A stretch of DNA of 64,000 nucleotides. Origin: Halarcobacter mediterraneus (GTDB lineage: Bacteria; Campylobacterota; Campylobacteria; Campylobacterales; Arcobacteraceae). Location: positions 124,001-188,000 of the forward strand of contig NZ_NXIE01000003.1 of the NCBI RefSeq assembly GCF_004116625.1, in the 5' to 3' direction. The notes under the pieces are model-generated. The model was not told the DNA's origin. It did no database searches and was given only the letters and a program-made list of their open reading frames with translations. The position numbers and the translations under genes are program-made. Shown one piece after another: positions 56,298 through 63,961 of the stretch (positions within the stretch are counted from its first letter, which is position 1; each line of letters begins with the position of its first letter).

Positions 56298-56319
56298 TAG
56301 TAACCAAGTTGTAATCAAA
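56298..56319 (+). promoter_or_regulatory. Pho-box-like direct repeat upstream of pstS
   Basis: TAGTAAC (56298-56304) and TTGTAAT (56309-56315) are 11 bases apart, the spacing of the E. coli Pho box. It shares 14 of 22 positions with the site at 59251-59272. It lies 43 bases before the pstS ATG. Confidence 0.65.
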
Positions 56320-56362
56320 CAAATATATACTTCCATATCATTACTTAAATATGGAGATAAAA

Positions 56363-57418
56363 ATGACATTAAAAAAGACAACAATTGCTTTATTAGCAAG
56401 TGCAGCACTTACTGTTTCTTTAAGTGCAAGAGAGCAAATAAAAATCGTAGGTTCTTCTACTGTATATCCATTCTCTTCTGCAGTAGCCGAAGAATTAGGT
56501 GCAACAACTAAATATCCAACTCCTGTAGTTGAATCAACTGGTTCAGGTGGAGGTATGAAATTATTTTGTGCTGGAAACGATTTAAATACTCCAGATATTA
56601 CAAATGCTTCAAGAAGAATGAAAACAAAAGAATTCACAATGTGTGAAAAAAATGGTGTTACTGATATTACAGAAGCTGTAATTGGTTATGATGGAATTGC
56701 TTTTGCGCAAGATAAATCAAATAAAGCATTTTCAATTTCTAAAGAACACTTAGCATTAGCAGTAGCTGAAGAAGTTCCTTCTAAAGATGGTAAATCATTA
56801 GTTAAAAACCCATATAAAAAATGGTCAGATATTGATGCTTCATTACCAAATAGAGAAATTATTGTTTATGGACCACCAAAATCTTCTGGTACAAGAGATG
56901 CATTTGAAGAAATGGTAATGCAAGGTACTTTCAAAAAAATGGCAGTTTATACAGACCTTTATAAAGCTGATAAAAAAGCAAATAAAAAATATAAAAAATA
57001 CTCTGTAGTTAGAACTGATGGTGTTTATGTTCCATCTGGAGAAAATGATAATATCATTGTTCAAAAATTAACTAAAAATAAAAATGCATTTGGTATCTTT
57101 GGATACTCTTTCTTAATTGAAAATGATGACAAATTATCTGGAGCAAAAGTAAATGGTGTTAGTCCAACTCCTGAATCAATTGCAAGTGGTAAATACCCAA
57201 TTGCTAGATCATTATTCTTCTATACTAAAAATTCACATAAAAAAGAAGTTCCTGCAATGAATAAATACATTGAAATGTTTATGTCTGAAAATATGATTGG
57301 ACCTGATGGAATCTTAACTGAAATTGGTTTAATTGCTTTACCAGATGCTCAAAGAACAGAAATAAGAAACTCTGTAATTAAAGCAAAAAAAGTTACATTA
57401 GAAAGCTTAAAACACTAA
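56363..57418 (+). CDS. pstS: Phosphate-binding protein PstS
   Basis: PstS is the periplasmic phosphate receptor of the PstSCAB transporter. I use the ATG at 56363 with GGAG seven bases upstream; an ATG at 56351 contains that site. The 351-residue protein has a signal peptide (about 1-22, ending LSA) and the phosphate loops IVGSSTVYPFSSAVAE and STGSGGGMKLF, with SSGTRDAFEE further on. It has its own Pho-box-like promoter. Two hairpins follow it. Confidence 0.94.
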   Translation: MTLKKTTIALLASAALTVSLSAREQIKIVGSSTVYPFSSAVAEELGATTKYPTPVVESTGSGGGMKLFCAGNDLNTPDITNASRRMKTKEFTMCEKNGVTDITEAVIGYDGIAFAQDKSNKAFSISKEHLALAVAEEVPSKDGKSLVKNPYKKWSDIDASLPNREIIVYGPPKSSGTRDAFEEMVMQGTFKKMAVYTDLYKADKKANKKYKKYSVVRTDGVYVPSGENDNIIVQKLTKNKNAFGIFGYSFLIENDDKLSGAKVNGVSPTPESIASGKYPIARSLFFYTKNSHKKEVPAMNKYIEMFMSENMIGPDGILTEIGLIALPDAQRTEIRNSVIKAKKVTLESLKH

Positions 57419-57424
57419 TAATAA

Positions 57425-57447
57425 AAGAAGAGATACTTTCTCTTCTT
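57425..57447 (+). terminator. Hairpin directly after pstS
   Basis: AAGAAGAGA (57425-57433) pairs with TCTCTTCTT (57439-57447). There is no U tract, so it may protect the pstS mRNA end or attenuate read-through and so raise PstS over downstream proteins. Confidence 0.55.
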
Positions 57448-57450
57448 AAT

Positions 57451-57521
57451 ATAGTGTTATATATGGACTTTTATCTGTTGATCCGCGAACTTGAGAGATA
57501 AAAGTCCATATATAACTCTAT
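57451..57521 (+). repeat. Long inverted repeat between pstS and the EAL gene
   Basis: A perfect 21-base arm (57456-57476) is matched by 57496-57516, with a 19-base loop. Outside a T/T mismatch, four more pairs (57451-57454 with 57518-57521) extend the stem. It ends 17 bases before the next start codon. No U tract follows. Confidence 0.9.
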
Positions 57522-57537
57522 TACAAAGGTAGTCCAC

Positions 57538-59256
57538 ATGTCAACTAAAATTGATGTTGACAAACTTGATTTTGCTTTTCAACCAATTGTAAATACTCAT
57601 ACAGGAAAAATTTTTGCTGTAGAGGCTCTTATTAGAAATACAGAAGAATTAGGTTTCTCTTCAATTCAAGACTTCTTCGATAAATTATCACAAAAAAATA
57701 TTTTATTTAGTATGGATATTATACTAAGAAAAAAAGCAGTTAAAAAATTCAAGAAAATAGATATTCATAATCTAAAACTATTTTATAATGTAGATAATAG
57801 GTTTTTTGCTATGCCTGATTTTAAAATAGGGGAAACCTCTAAAATATTAGAAAAAAATCAACTTGATAAAGATTCTGTATGTTTTGAAATAACAGAACAT
57901 AGTTCCCTAAAAGATGATGAACTTATAAAGCATATAGTAAGTGTATATAAAGCAAATAATTTTAATATTGCAATTGATGACTTTGGAACAGGAGTTTCTG
58001 GACTTCATTTATTATACTTGTCTGAAACAAACTTTATAAAAATTGATAAATTTTTTGTAGAAGGAATAAATAAAGATGCAAAGAAAAGACTTTTTTGTGC
58101 TTCTATAGTAGAAATGGCTCATACTTTAGGAATAAAAGTAATTGCTGTAGGAGTGGAAACTTCAGGAGAATATTACTCATGTAAAGAAATAAAAATTGAC
58201 TATATTCAAGGTTTTATTGTCTCAAAACCTATTTTAGATATAAGAAAAATAAAAAAGTCATACTCTAAAGAAAATATGTTTACAAAAGACAGAAGAGTTT
58301 CACATAATAACTTTATTGATAAATCATTTATTGATAAAATTGATCCTTTGAATGTAAGTACTAGCTTACATGAATTGTTTGTATATTTTAAAGAGCACAC
58401 TTTAAATACCTTTGTTCCAATTGTAGATGATAATAAAAAAATTTTAGGAGCAATATATGAAGTTGATATAAAAGAGATTTCATACTCACAATATGGTTTA
58501 TCATTAGCTAAAAATGACTCTTTTAAAGCAAAACTAAAAAATTATATTAAACCCGTATTAGAAATTGATATTACTTGGGGAATAGATAAAGCCTTAGAAA
58601 TATTTAATATGAGAAGTGATTCCCAAGGTATTTTTGTAAGTAAAGACTCAAAATACTATGGCTTTATAAACTTAAATAACCTACTAAGCCTATCATATAA
58701 AAGAAATTTAGAAATTGCACAAAATCAAAACCCTTTAACAAAGTTACCAGGTAATAATCAAATTGATAGTTTTATATTAAATGCCTTTGAAAAAAAAATT
58801 CATACACAAATAGTTTATTTTGACTTCAATGACTTTAAACCTTTTAATGACACATATGGTTTTAGACAAGGAGATAGAGCAATTTTAATGTTCTCCGAAA
58901 TTTTACAAAAAAATATCTCAAATGAAAACTTCATAGCTCATATTGGTGGAGATGATTTTTTTGTTGCTTTTACAAATAGTAATTATGAAGAAGTTCATAA
59001 AATAATCCATAATATTCAAGAGGAATTCAGAATAAATGCTTCAAGTTTATATAATGAAAAAGATATTTTAAATGGATATATGACCTCTAAAGATAGATTT
59101 GGAGTAAGTAGAAACTTTAATCTACTTTCTGTTTGTGCTGCAATAATTGAAGTTTCACATAAAAGCACACAAAATATATTTAACTCAAAACTCGGAGAGA
59201 TTAAAAAACTTTCAAAACAATACTCTTATCCTTATGGTAGCTGTATTTGCATGTAA
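57538..59256 (+). CDS. EAL-CBS-GGDEF protein inside the pst locus
   Basis: This 572-residue cytosolic protein has an EAL domain (about 8-245), two CBS repeats (about 265-385) and a GGDEF domain (about 395-572). Most EAL catalytic residues are kept: the EALIR motif, the asparagine of FYNVD, EITE, IDDFGTG, IKID and the glutamine of YIQGF. Val204 replaces the first glutamate of the AEGVE motif (AVGVE), the residue corresponding to RocR E352, so phosphodiesterase activity may be lost. The cyclase motif GGDDF (470-474) looks usable and no RxxD inhibitory site precedes it. The stop codon lies inside the pstC Pho-box-like site. CBS domains might sense nucleotides. Confidence 0.88.
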   Translation: MSTKIDVDKLDFAFQPIVNTHTGKIFAVEALIRNTEELGFSSIQDFFDKLSQKNILFSMDIILRKKAVKKFKKIDIHNLKLFYNVDNRFFAMPDFKIGETSKILEKNQLDKDSVCFEITEHSSLKDDELIKHIVSVYKANNFNIAIDDFGTGVSGLHLLYLSETNFIKIDKFFVEGINKDAKKRLFCASIVEMAHTLGIKVIAVGVETSGEYYSCKEIKIDYIQGFIVSKPILDIRKIKKSYSKENMFTKDRRVSHNNFIDKSFIDKIDPLNVSTSLHELFVYFKEHTLNTFVPIVDDNKKILGAIYEVDIKEISYSQYGLSLAKNDSFKAKLKNYIKPVLEIDITWGIDKALEIFNMRSDSQGIFVSKDSKYYGFINLNNLLSLSYKRNLEIAQNQNPLTKLPGNNQIDSFILNAFEKKIHTQIVYFDFNDFKPFNDTYGFRQGDRAILMFSEILQKNISNENFIAHIGGDDFFVAFTNSNYEEVHKIIHNIQEEFRINASSLYNEKDILNGYMTSKDRFGVSRNFNLLSVCAAIIEVSHKSTQNIFNSKLGEIKKLSKQYSYPYGSCICM

Positions 59257-59272
59257 CCAGACTGTAACTAAT
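59251..59272 (+). promoter_or_regulatory. Pho-box-like direct repeat upstream of pstC
   Basis: ATGTAAC (59251-59257) and CTGTAAC (59262-59268) are 11 bases apart and match the pstS site. It overlaps the stop codon of the EAL gene and lies about 40 bases before the pstC start. Confidence 0.65.
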
Positions 59273-59311
59273 CAACTGTAAAATTACGAAAATTTAATAC
59301 AAAGGTTGGAT

Positions 59312-60241
59312 TTGCATTCATTTGAGTCTAAAAATAAATCAACTGTAATGAAAGAAAATCTCATAAAAACAGCATTGATTGTAGCTTCTACCATATCAAT
59401 ACTTACTACTTTTGGGATTCTTTTTTCAATACTATTTGAAGCAATTTCGTTCTTTGAGCTAAGAAGTTTTTGGTACTTCTTAACAGGAACAGAATGGTCA
59501 CCGGGAATACCAGGAAGTAAATTTGGAGCAGTACCTATTTTTGCAGGTACACTTATGATTACTTTTATTGCAATGGCTGTTGCTTTACCTATTGGATTAG
59601 GTAGTGCTATTTTTATGAGTGAGTATGCCTCTCATAGAACAAGATCATACCTAAAACCTGTCTTAGAAATTCTTGCTGGAATACCTACTGTTGTTTATGG
59701 TTTCTTTGCTGCAATAACAGTTGCTCCTTTAATTGTAAAAGGTGCTGCATTTTTTGGCTTAGAAGCTACCTTCAACTCTGCTTTAGCTTCTGGAGTTGTT
59801 ATGGGGATTATGATCATTCCTGTAATTTCATCTTTATCAGATGATGTAATTAAAGCTGTTCCAGATAGTCAAAGAAAAGCTTCATTAGGCTTAGGAATGA
59901 CACAAGGTGAAACAATTAAGAACATTGTACTTCCATCTGCTTTACCAGGTATTATTTCTGCAACACTATTAGGTTTTTCAAAAGCAATTGGAGAGACAAT
60001 GATTGTTGTTATGGCAGCAGGGTTAAGACCAAACCTTTCAATTAACCCTTTAGAAGATATGACTACAGTTACGGTTAGAATCGTAGATGCCTTAGTAGGA
60101 GACCAAGCTTTCAATTCTCCGGAAACATTAGTTGCATTTGCATTAGGATTGGCATTATTTGTAGTAACTCTAGCTTTAAATATTGTTTCTCTATCTTTGA
60201 TTAGAAAATTTAAAGAAAAGTACAAGGTAAATACATTATGA
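59312..60241 (+). CDS. pstC: Phosphate ABC transporter permease PstC
   Basis: PstC is one of two permeases for phosphate uptake. I prefer the TTG at 59312, six bases after AAAGG; a TTG at 59306 is in frame but too close to that site. The roughly 310-residue protein has about six membrane helices and the EAA loop (KAVPDSQRKASLGLGMT), plus ILAGIPTVVYGFFA. It overlaps pstA by four bases. Confidence 0.93.
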   Translation: MHSFESKNKSTVMKENLIKTALIVASTISILTTFGILFSILFEAISFFELRSFWYFLTGTEWSPGIPGSKFGAVPIFAGTLMITFIAMAVALPIGLGSAIFMSEYASHRTRSYLKPVLEILAGIPTVVYGFFAAITVAPLIVKGAAFFGLEATFNSALASGVVMGIMIIPVISSLSDDVIKAVPDSQRKASLGLGMTQGETIKNIVLPSALPGIISATLLGFSKAIGETMIVVMAAGLRPNLSINPLEDMTTVTVRIVDALVGDQAFNSPETLVAFALGLALFVVTLALNIVSLSLIRKFKEKYKVNTL

Positions 60242-61422
60242 TTAAGAAAAAGAACAAAAATAAAAATAATCCTTTTTATGATCCAACGTTAACAAAAAGA
60301 CATAGAAGTTCAAAAAGATTTAAAACATTTACTTTAGCTTCTTTAGTTTTTTCAATTGCTTTTTTAGTTTTTTTCTTATTTGATATTATAGGAAAAGGAA
60401 CTCCTGCTTTTGAGCAAGCATATGTAAATGTAGAAGTAACATATAATGAAGCCTCAAAAAAAAGTTATAGAAAAGCAATTGATAAAAAATATACTAGGAT
60501 TGTTTCTAGAGCTTGGTTAAGAACTGTTCCAATGTTAATTGAAGAGAACCCAGAACTTATGGGGAAAACTATCAAAACTTGGGTTCTAGCTGATGACCAA
60601 GTAGACCAATACTTAAAAGGTCACTATTTTAAGTTAAAAAGAAAAGATAGAGCTTTAATTGATGAAATGAAAGCTTATGGTGATGCTGAATTAAAATTTA
60701 ATACAATTTTCTTTACAAATGGGGACTCAAAAACACCTGAATTTGCAGGTTTAAACTCAGCAATAATAGGTTCTATTTTAACTTTGATTATAACAATGCT
60801 TGTTGCCTTTCCAATAGGTGTAATGACAGCTGTTTATTTAGAAGAGTTTGCCGATGATAATAAATTCACACAAACAATTGAAGTTAATATTAATAACTTA
60901 GCAGCTATTCCTTCAATCTTATTTGGTTTATTAGGTCTTGCAATATTTATTAATCTATTTGGATTACCTAGATCCTCACCTCTTGTAGGGGGTCTTACAT
61001 TAGCTCTTATGACCCTACCAATTATTATTGTAAGTTCAAGAGCAGCACTAAGAGCAGTTCCTGATTCTATTAGACAAGCAGGTTATGGTTTAGGTCTAAC
61101 TAAAATTGAAGTTACAAGAGACCATGTTTTACCATTAGCATTCCCTGGGATTTTGACTGGTTCAATTATAGGTTTAGCACAAGCTATGGGAGAAACAGCA
61201 CCATTAATTATTATTGGTATGATTGCATTTATTCCAGATGCACCTGGCTCTATAATGGAAGCAGCTACAGTTATGCCTGCACAATTATTTACATGGGCTG
61301 GGATGCCAGAGAGAATGTATATAGAAAAAACTGCTGCTGGAATTATGGTATTACTAACGATTTTGATTTCTCTAAATGCATTAGCAATATACCTTAGAAA
61401 AAAATATGAAGTAAAATGGTAA
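60238..61422 (+). CDS. pstA: Phosphate ABC transporter permease PstA
   Basis: This 394-residue permease is longer than E. coli PstA because of a periplasmic insert (about 60-165) after the first helix. The EAA loop [34 protein letters not shown] and [13 protein letters not shown] are diagnostic. It follows pstC and overlaps the region upstream of pstB. The N-terminus is lysine rich (KKKNKNKNN). Confidence 0.93.
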
Positions 61423-61451
61423 AAAAGAAGAAGTTTAAGGAAAATAATAAA

Positions 61452-62222
61452 ATGGCAAATGAAAATAAAATAAAAGTAGATGTAAATGAATTAAATTTAT
61501 GGTATGGAAGTAACCATGCCCTTCATAGTATTTCAGTTCCTTTATATGAAAATAAAATCACAGCTTTAATTGGACCTTCTGGATGTGGAAAGTCTACATT
61601 CTTAAGATGTTTAAATAGAATGAATGACTTAATTTCAAGTGTTAAGATTGATGGTTCTGTTGTAATTGATAATAAAAATATTTATGATAAAGATGTTGAT
61701 GAAGTAAGTGTTAGAAAAAGAGTTGGGATGGTTTTTCAACAACCAAATCCTTTTCCTAAATCTATTTATGACAATGTTGCTTATGCACCTTTAAAACATA
61801 ATCAAGTAAAAAAAGGCAAAGCGTGTGATGAATTAGTAGAAAAATCATTAAGAGATGCAGGACTTTGGGAAGAAGTAAAAGATAAATTAAATGAACCAGG
61901 AACATCACTTTCAGGTGGACAGCAACAAAGACTTTGTATTGCAAGAACAATTGCAGTTAAACCTGAAATTATTTTAATGGATGAACCAACATCAGCTTTA
62001 GATCCTATTTCAACAGAAAAAATTGAAGCTTTGATGTTAGAGTTAAAAAAGCAGTATACAATAATAACTGTAACTCATAATATGCAACAGGCAGCTAGAG
62101 TTGCTGATTATACTGCATTTTTCCACCTTGGAAAACTTATTGAATATGATGAAACAGAAACAATTTTCGTAAATCCATCAAACAAAAAAACAGAAGATTA
62201 TATTACAGGAAGGTTTGGGTAA
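61452..62222 (+). CDS. pstB: Phosphate ABC transporter ATPase PstB
   Basis: I use the ATG at 61452 (MANENKIK) with AAGGA upstream; the ATG at 61416 adds 12 mostly basic residues. The 256-residue ATPase has Walker [10 protein letters not shown], signature LSGGQQQR, Walker B IILMDEP and the switch histidine of [21 protein letters not shown] is typical of PstB. Its stop overlaps the phoU ATG by one base. Confidence 0.95.
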
Positions 62223-62890
62223 TGTTAAAACCATATATAGAGAATATTAACAAAATAAAAGAAGAAATAACAAATATAGGAGAAGAGATTTCACATGCAA
62301 ATAAAATTTCTTTGTCTGCCTTAAAAGAAAATGATTCATCAATGTTAAAAGATGTTAACTTATCAATGAAGAAACTATCATCAAAGTCAACTGAAATTGA
62401 TAACTTAATAGTTAAAACATTAGCATTATATTCACCAGAAGCAAAAGACTTAAGAGAAATGGTTTCTTTTTTAAAAATTACCAATGAACTAATGAGAGCA
62501 GCTGCATATTCAAAAGCTTTTGCAAAATCTTTTAGAAAAGCTTTTTCTCCTGAATTAGATGCAGAAGCAATTTTAGAATATGCAATTCCTTTACTAAAAT
62601 CATCTAACTTAGCTTTATACACGGCTATTGAAATGGTTAAAGAAGATGATGAAAAACTTATTGAAGAAAAGTTCAATAGAGTTTTAGTTGAAGATAGTAA
62701 AACAGATGATTTATATGCAATGATAGAAAAAAATATTTTAAAACTTATCACTAAAAATATTGAATTATCAAAAGACTATTTTGAAGTACTAAGTTCCTTA
62801 AGAAAACTAGAAAAAGTTTCAGGAAGAGCAAGCTCAATTGCAAACTTATTAGTTTTTGCTGAAGTTGGTGGAGATTTAGAAAACACTTGA
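62222..62890 (+). CDS. phoU: PhoU-family phosphate regulator
   Basis: PhoU links the Pst transporter to the PhoR-PhoB system and limits phosphate uptake. The 222-residue all-helical protein has two PhoU repeats; IDNLIVKTLALYSPEAKDLREMV (about 58-80) is the clear family segment. It is translationally coupled with pstB. Confidence 0.88.
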   Translation: MLKPYIENINKIKEEITNIGEEISHANKISLSALKENDSSMLKDVNLSMKKLSSKSTEIDNLIVKTLALYSPEAKDLREMVSFLKITNELMRAAAYSKAFAKSFRKAFSPELDAEAILEYAIPLLKSSNLALYTAIEMVKEDDEKLIEEKFNRVLVEDSKTDDLYAMIEKNILKLITKNIELSKDYFEVLSSLRKLEKVSGRASSIANLLVFAEVGGDLENT

Positions 62891-62895
62891 TTTTT

Positions 62896-63285
62896 ATGAA
62901 ATTAATTGAAAATATAAAAAAATATTTCAGTTCAAACTATGAAGTTTTAGCTGCAGTTATTATTTTTATAATAGTAATTGTTGCTAAACTTGAATTCTAC
63001 AAAACAATCATTTTAATGCTTGAATTCATTGTACTAATGGAAGTAGCTAAAATGATTTCAGACTTTATAAAAAAAGAAAAACTTAGACTTCGATTTGTTA
63101 TTGATATCTTTATTATCTTTTTAATTCGTGATGTGATTATTTACACTTCTCATACAAATAAAGACTATTTTACTATTATCTTTTTACTTTTTGTGATTTT
63201 TATATTCTTTATTTTTAGAATATTAGCTATAAAATACTCTCCAGGAATTGTAAAACCACAAAAAGAAAATAATAAAGAAGATTAA
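62896..63285 (+). CDS. PsiE-like phosphate-starvation membrane protein
   Basis: This protein of about 129 residues has four membrane helices (about 17-35, 40-55, 70-85, 95-115) and the charged segment ISDFIKKEKLRLRFVIDI with a following IRDVIIY, as in PsiE-family proteins induced by phosphate starvation. The ATG at 62896 is used; a TTG at 62887 that overlaps the phoU stop is also possible. Its place between phoU and the response regulator supports a Pho role. Its function is not known. Confidence 0.78.
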   Translation: MKLIENIKKYFSSNYEVLAAVIIFIIVIVAKLEFYKTIILMLEFIVLMEVAKMISDFIKKEKLRLRFVIDIFIIFLIRDVIIYTSHTNKDYFTIIFLLFVIFIFFIFRILAIKYSPGIVKPQKENNKED

Positions 63286-63286
63286 A

Positions 63287-63961
63287 ATGCATAATAAATT
63301 AGTACTAATCGTTGAAGATGAAGAAGATATCTTAGAATTATTAGAATATACTTTACAAAAAGAGTCTTATGACACTATAGGTTTTTTAAACGTAAATGAA
63401 AAATTAGAAAAAGTTTTAGATGAGGAAAGTATTGATCTTATTTTAATGGATAGAAACCTTCCAGGAATTGATGGAACTGAATTTATTAATAATATTAGAA
63501 AAAAAGGTCACAACTGCCCAGTAATATATCTTACAGCAAAAGATAAGGACGAAGATATTCTAGAAGGATTTGAGTCTCACGCAGATGATTATATTACAAA
63601 ACCATTTAATATAAAAGAGTTATTAGCAAGAATTAAAGCTGTTATAAAAAGAAGCTCAAAAGATATTAATATTTTAAAAGTAAGAGATATTACTTATAAA
63701 GCATCAAATAAAAAGTTCTATATTGATTCAAATGAAATAGAGCTTACTCATTTAGAACATGACTTGCTACTAGAGTTTATAAAAAACAAAGATATTCTCA
63801 TGTCAAGAGAACACCTATTAGAAGCTGTTTGGGAAGACTCTTATGATAAAAAATTAAAAACAGTAAATGTTGCAATAAAAAGATTGAAAGCAAAAATTGA
63901 TCCTCACAATGAAAAAGAATATATTAAATCAATTAGAGGAGAAGGTTACTTGTTTTGTTAA
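63287..63961 (+). CDS. phoB: OmpR/PhoB-family response regulator
   Basis: This 224-residue regulator has a receiver domain with acidic pocket EDEED (10-14), phospho-acceptor Asp55 (ILMDRNLPG) and the lysine of LTAKDKDED, followed by a winged-helix DNA-binding domain (about 130-224; LTHLEHDLLLEF, TVNVAIKRLKAKI). Its position after pstCAB-phoU makes PhoB the likely identity, acting at the two Pho-box-like sites. It starts one base after the PsiE-like stop. Confidence 0.85.
   Translation: MHNKLVLIVEDEEDILELLEYTLQKESYDTIGFLNVNEKLEKVLDEESIDLILMDRNLPGIDGTEFINNIRKKGHNCPVIYLTAKDKDEDILEGFESHADDYITKPFNIKELLARIKAVIKRSSKDINILKVRDITYKASNKKFYIDSNEIELTHLEHDLLLEFIKNKDILMSREHLLEAVWEDSYDKKLKTVNVAIKRLKAKIDPHNEKEYIKSIRGEGYLFC

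Follow-up and report, generated by a model that had tools for sequence, protein, structure and literature searches.

Why would a gene for a cyclic-di-GMP (c-di-GMP) protein lie between two genes for a phosphate transporter, and does its product still act on c-di-GMP if a glutamate of the EAL active site has become a valine? The locus that raises this question is in a 2.83-Mb Arcobacteraceae genome (29 contigs, with an assembly that is 100% complete), of which we analysed a 64-kb stretch of DNA ("the window"). We think it probable that the gene encodes a RapA-type protein that is made when phosphate is scarce, and that in this genome the phosphodiesterase activity was probably lost by a recent E204V change; the gene's place within the pst operon is conserved across much of the Arcobacteraceae.

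The RapA-type gene and its position in the pst operon

The genes of the phosphate locus are all on the + strand, in the order pstS, RapA-type gene, pstC, pstA, pstB, phoU, psiE, phoB. The first gene, pstS (56351..57418), encodes the phosphate-binding protein; it matches PBP_like_2 from Pfam, and its match to TIGR02136 is below the cut-off. The second gene, at 57538..59256, is an open reading frame of 572 amino acids with an ATG start, located where the original prediction had described a c-di-GMP protein between pstS and pstC. It is followed by pstC (59306..60241), pstA (60238..61422), and pstB (61416..62222), which score above the cut-offs of TIGR02138, TIGR00974, and TIGR00972, respectively, and then by phoU (62222..62890; Pfam PhoU), a psiE-like gene (62887..63285; Pfam PsiE), and a phoB-like response regulator (63287..63961; Pfam Response_reg and Trans_reg_C).

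The RapA-type gene sits in the pst operon across much of the Arcobacteraceae. The order pstS, RapA-type gene, pstC was found in 34 of 68 non-redundant loci, and the other loci are mostly from outside the Arcobacteraceae or have the gene elsewhere in the genome. In our search of the literature, we found one paper that uses the term EAL-CBS-GGDEF but no published experiment on the RapA-type gene in Arcobacteraceae. (In Arcobacter sp. CECT 8985, or L020/L037, the phosphate locus does not have pstSCAB beside the RapA-type gene, but it still has an apparent Pho box, the long hairpin that is described below, the RapA-type gene, phoU, psiE, and phoB.)

Relationship to RapA and PA3258

End-to-end homologues of the window protein are present in most of the Arcobacteraceae genomes that we searched and also in other phyla, so the gene is more than a chance open reading frame. 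A tblastn search of plasmids identified a PA3258-like protein from P. aeruginosa whose gene adjoins a gene for a carboxy-terminal processing peptidase. We take this neighbourhood to be equivalent to PA3257-PA3262 of strain PAO1, which is the basis for our identification of PA3258. The PA3258-like protein aligns to residues 14 to 563 of the window protein at an identity of only 25% (565 columns, E = 7e-68), and both proteins contain the motifs NPLT.LPGN, FKPFND.YG, and HIGGDDF. PA3258 is an EAL-CBS-GGDEF protein and a putative orthologue of RapA (PMC12900916, PMC9394441); the kinship of the window protein to RapA runs via PA3258, for whose orthology with RapA we rely on those two papers. In P. 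fluorescens, the expression of RapA in low phosphate depends on PhoB; as a phosphodiesterase, RapA depletes c-di-GMP, which leads through LapD and LapG to the release of the adhesin LapA (PMC3032545).

The domains of the window protein are in the same order. The EAL domain is at residues 4-231 (57547..58230, + strand; Pfam PF00563, E = 1e-45), two CBS repeats are at approximately residues 262-396 (58321..58725, + strand), and a GGDEF-fold domain is at approximately residues 399-560 (58732..59217, + strand; Pfam PF00990 at 399-503). CBS repeats had been predicted in the middle of the protein, and indeed Pfam finds CBS at residues 271-313, while the second repeat, which Pfam misses, is visible in an AlphaFold model. 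This model (built from 42 homologues, mean pLDDT 85.3) contains two CBS-like strand/helix units and a complete GGDEF fold. Together, Pfam and the model give an EAL domain, two CBS repeats, and a GGDEF domain on one soluble chain, which is the RapA/PA3258-type architecture. As judged by its sequence, the window protein is RapA-type, which is a known kind of protein, with a private loss of one catalytic residue.

CBS repeats also lie between catalytic-type domains in DdpB from Bordetella (BB2957) and in an EAL-CBS-GGDEF protein from Cupriavidus metallidurans. In DdpB, the GGDEF motif reads GGDDF and the EAL motif is mutated (PMC12805831), with ESL in place of EAL; its likeness to the window protein is by description. 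The window gene differs from both in its pst-operon setting, as no linkage to pst is shown for DdpB or for the C. metallidurans protein. It also differs from the genes for RapA and PA3258 in that it forms part of the pst operon, with pstS on one side, pstC on the other, and a long conserved hairpin ahead of it.

A private substitution in the EAL active site

The original prediction was that Val204 replaces the glutamate that corresponds to E352 of RocR and that the other EAL residues are retained. Both statements are correct. The active-site alignment places the codon GTA for Val204 at 58147..58149 (+ strand), within A203-V204-G205-V206-E207 (AVGVE), and E29, N84, E117, D147, D148, K168, E207, and Q224 are present. 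The set of metal-binding and catalytic residues is thus incomplete, with valine for E204. Two more conserved positions of the EAL domain are altered in the window protein (I174V and M197L).

Across the family alignment, E29, N84, E117, D147, K168, E207, and Q224 (equivalent to E175, N233, E265, D295, K316, E355, and Q372 of RocR) show no replacement. At the position that matches RocR E352, 61 of 66 non-redundant members have Glu, and the other five have V (the window protein), L, S, and twice K. This glutamate was lost at least four times independently, and three of the five members without it have also lost its partner ligand, D148; in our census of the 66 homologues, D148 is the only one of the remaining listed EAL residues that is ever lost. 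The four nearest relatives of the window protein, which are 79-80% identical to it, carry AEGVE or AEGIE, and the PA3258-like protein combines GGDDF with an intact AEGIE, in contrast to AVGVE in the window protein. By this comparison, V204 (one base from GAA) is private to this lineage, which rules out a degenerate EAL domain as a trait of the family. Because the EAL site of the family is normally intact, the degenerate site is not the reason for the gene's position in the operon.

What does the change do to the enzyme? The first glutamate of the ExxE motif (RocR E352) binds metal (PMC7911125), and replacing the first glutamate of this motif with alanine in TBD1265 abolishes phosphodiesterase activity (PMC12943098). 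The hydrolysis of c-di-GMP by the window protein has therefore likely been lost. This agrees with the earlier suggestion, at least for this genome, that the EAL domain does not cut c-di-GMP.

We also asked if the EAL domain had evolved faster. On the branch to the window protein, the share of change in the EAL domain exceeds that in the remaining protein by a factor of 1.6, and 11 of 100 permutations reach the observed excess. Since this acceleration is not significant, it does not independently point to a loss of function in this genome, and we dropped it as proof of such a loss. In L024, which lost two metal ligands, the EAL domain does evolve significantly faster than the rest (0 of 100 permutations), and on an intact-site branch (L014), the EAL excess was reached in 1 of 100. 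(In L024/L038, a related genome, the EAL domain is more decayed and has ETL, DNFG, and ALGIE.)

The GGDDF domain

The GGDDF signature is at residues 470-474 (58945..58959, + strand) and is invariant in 67 of 67 non-redundant homologues, from records labelled as Campylobacterota, Alphaproteobacteria, Desulfobulbaceae, and Treponema. The original prediction described GGDDF as intact, which is not correct: the canonical motif is GG[DE]EF, its fourth residue is the catalytic base (PMC8835794), and in all of these homologues the catalytic Glu is Asp. The window protein thus does not have the glutamate of a canonical diguanylate cyclase, and from the alignment GGDDF is a signature of the family. Apart from the catalytic Glu, the GTP- or metal-contacting positions that we checked are conserved (D429, N437, D446, G470-G471, and D472). 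There is no RxxD before GGDDF, as predicted.

Pho-box-like repeats around the RapA-type gene

A Pho-box-like direct repeat, GTAACCAAGTTGTAAT, lies before pstS (56300..56315, + strand), and a second one, GTAACCAGACTGTAAC, lies before pstC and overlaps the stop codon of the RapA-type gene (59253..59268, + strand). Their common pattern is the direct repeat GTAAYNNNNNNGTAAY, with a period of 11 bp. It is present as an exact match before pstS in 51 of 52 loci, about 50 nt from the start, and before pstC in 39 of 40 loci, while the expected numbers from shuffled sequences are 0.15 and 0.1, respectively. The only exact matches in the window are the two above, which flank the RapA-type gene. A tighter form, GTAAYCNNNNTGTAAY, matches the 2.83-Mb genome exactly at six sites, versus 0 for a reversed control. 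From the position of GTAAYNNNNNNGTAAY, we infer that it is the binding site of PhoB; GTAAYCNNNNTGTAAY, with its 11-bp period, is the apparent Pho box of Arcobacteraceae.

Most of the RapA-type genes in Campylobacterota that have been relocated or that are not preceded by pstS have a box of their own, either exact (L025/L026, L028, and L020/L037) or with one mismatch (L027/L043, L032/L041, L042, L054, and L056). Two mismatches were seen in L053 and L057, and there was no Pho-box-like match upstream of the RapA-type gene in L052 or L081. The boxes of relocated copies are 87-199 nt upstream, except for 405 nt in L020/L037, where the box looks like a relic of a lost pstS promoter. A search for E. 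coli-type Pho boxes upstream of the alphaproteobacterial homologues gave no convincing match; the PA3258-like gene has a match with 2 mismatches. For RapA of P. fluorescens Pf0-1, control by the Pho system is published, and the repeats suggest the same for the window gene. Overall, a link to phosphate, which the original prediction had suggested, is well supported by the synteny (34 of 68 loci), by the Pho-box-like sites, and by homology to RapA (PMC3032545).

Elsewhere in the genome, there is a Pho-box-like match at positions 1501-1516 of L166 (contig C7:11157-11172, - strand), just upstream of a metallophosphoesterase-like gene. We presume that the genes past this match on C7 are this metallophosphoesterase-like gene and then a patatin-like gene. 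They are possibly involved in lipid remodelling during phosphate starvation.

Proposed function and alternatives

We propose that a cytosolic EAL-CBS-CBS-GGDDF protein is made at low phosphate. The ancestral EAL domain would cut c-di-GMP and lower the level of the signal, which would favour detachment or motility; the CBS pair, which probably binds adenine nucleotides, and the GGDDF domain, which probably binds GTP, would tune the enzyme. Because the gene was set between pstS and pstC in Arcobacteraceae, it would be induced along with the phosphate transporter, by transcription through from the putative Pho promoter of pstS. In the genome studied here, a single recent base change, from Glu to Val at position 204, would have removed one of the ligands of the second catalytic metal and so probably the phosphodiesterase activity. 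The native protein would at most bind c-di-GMP and would still be induced by phosphate starvation. Relatives of LapG and LapD are encoded in the same genome (three LapG-type peptidases, as well as LapD-type receptors, with two adjacent pairs), so an output via LapD and LapG, and hence an effect on adhesion, would be available. The LapG-LapD-type pairs are at C5:50717-53046 and C9:15704-18411, and the third LapG-type gene is at C3:94211.

The main alternative for this genome is that the protein, with catalysis lost, is retained as a phosphate-induced receptor or sink for c-di-GMP. LapD and FimX have an EAL fold that can bind c-di-GMP without cutting it efficiently; the top PDB matches of our model are EAL structures, and 3pju and 3hv8 are among its structural matches. 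LapD and FimX have other input domains and are without several catalytic residues; the window protein is without one, and its close relatives have them all. A receptor or sink would fit with the open frame and the conservation of the remainder of the EAL domain, with the confinement of losses, among the EAL residues examined, to ligands of the second metal (E204 and sometimes D148), and with the recurrence of the loss in at least four separate lineages. On the other hand, V204 appears to be recent and private, so the other residues may be conserved simply because there was too little time for them to change; we see no effector partner; and in L024, where the same Glu was lost, the faster change of the EAL domain (0 of 100) fits relaxed constraint better than a retained role in binding. 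We are doubtful of this alternative, while giving it a real chance. An unlikely alternative is that V204 reflects an error in sequencing or assembly, or a rare allele, and that the RapA-type phosphodiesterase of the species is normal. The codon differs from GAA by a single base and comes from one assembly; the other listed EAL residues are all intact; and the EAL domain is not significantly accelerated. But the assembly appears to be of good quality (100% complete, 29 contigs), the frame is open, I174V and M197L also set the window protein apart, and the equivalent Glu has been lost in other genomes as well.

The original prediction also proposed that the GGDEF part may synthesize c-di-GMP. 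If the EAL domain only binds c-di-GMP, then the protein would be a net diguanylate cyclase that is switched on by phosphate starvation. The conservation of the other GTP- and metal-contacting positions would allow this, and GSU1937, another GGDDF enzyme, is active (PMC8835794). Yet the catalytic Glu is Asp in every homologue; over-expression of PA3258, which also has GGDDF, did not raise c-di-GMP (as stated in PMC8835794); diguanylate cyclase activity of PA3258 is a speculation in PMC9394441; and RapA works as a phosphodiesterase (PMC3032545). We consider a net cyclase to be very unlikely. A regulatory role through GTP binding, as described for CC3396 (PMC3527489), seems more likely than synthesis.

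If our preferred explanation of a RapA-type phosphodiesterase with a recent E204V change is correct, then the RapA circuit, in which phosphate starvation acts through PhoB to remove c-di-GMP, extends from Pseudomonas to Campylobacterota, and here it is hard-wired into the pst operon instead of being encoded elsewhere. The orthologues with and without the second-metal Glu, with at least four independent losses, form a natural series for asking if a phosphodiesterase becomes a receptor or decays, and the invariant GGDDF makes the role of the variant domain directly testable.

A conserved hairpin between pstS and the RapA-type gene

A long, strongly covarying hairpin lies at 57447..57524 (+ strand), with arms at 57451-57476 and 57496-57521, a stem of about 25 pairs, and CGCGAAC in the loop. 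In an alignment of 26 relatives, it has 19 consensus pairs, 18 of them with changes on both sides, and 92.7% of cells pair, versus 72% in shuffles and 31-48% when slid. A covariance model finds the hairpin in 42 of 104 Arcobacteraceae genomes (E<=0.01), at one locus per genome except for two weak extra matches; with strict filters, the model found none outside the Arcobacteraceae in 249 genomes drawn from the order. Before the RapA-type gene, the hairpin mostly ends 6-36 nt from the start codon that was used in the scan.

Several explanations for the hairpin can be ruled out. It is not tied to the RapA-type gene alone, as three genomes have pstS-hairpin-pstC without this gene, and it is not just the 3' end of pstS, as it persists in L020/L037 and L027/L028/L043, where no pstS lies ahead of it. 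Its single locus in the genome argues against a dispersed repeat or a mobile palindrome. A search of Rfam gave no convincing match to a known family: the matches were to eukaryotic miRNA and other models, far below the gathering threshold. We found no paper on the hairpin in the literature.

The table of pairs has 34 tolerated G-U cells versus 13 A-C cells (these cells are not independent), which favours a sense-strand RNA. The hairpin is not a simple terminator because no T-run follows it, and we read it as a candidate element for read-through, processing, or translation. Tentatively, it might be a cis-regulatory RNA, as yet undescribed, in the phosphate loci of Arcobacteraceae that sets Pho-driven read-through into the RapA-type and transporter genes, perhaps in response to a metabolite or protein, and that outlives the loss of either neighbour. 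In any case, its conservation makes it a separate regulatory lead. Just ahead of it, a short terminator-like hairpin follows pstS (57425..57447; unstranded, listed on the - strand), and most of the relatives have an equivalent.
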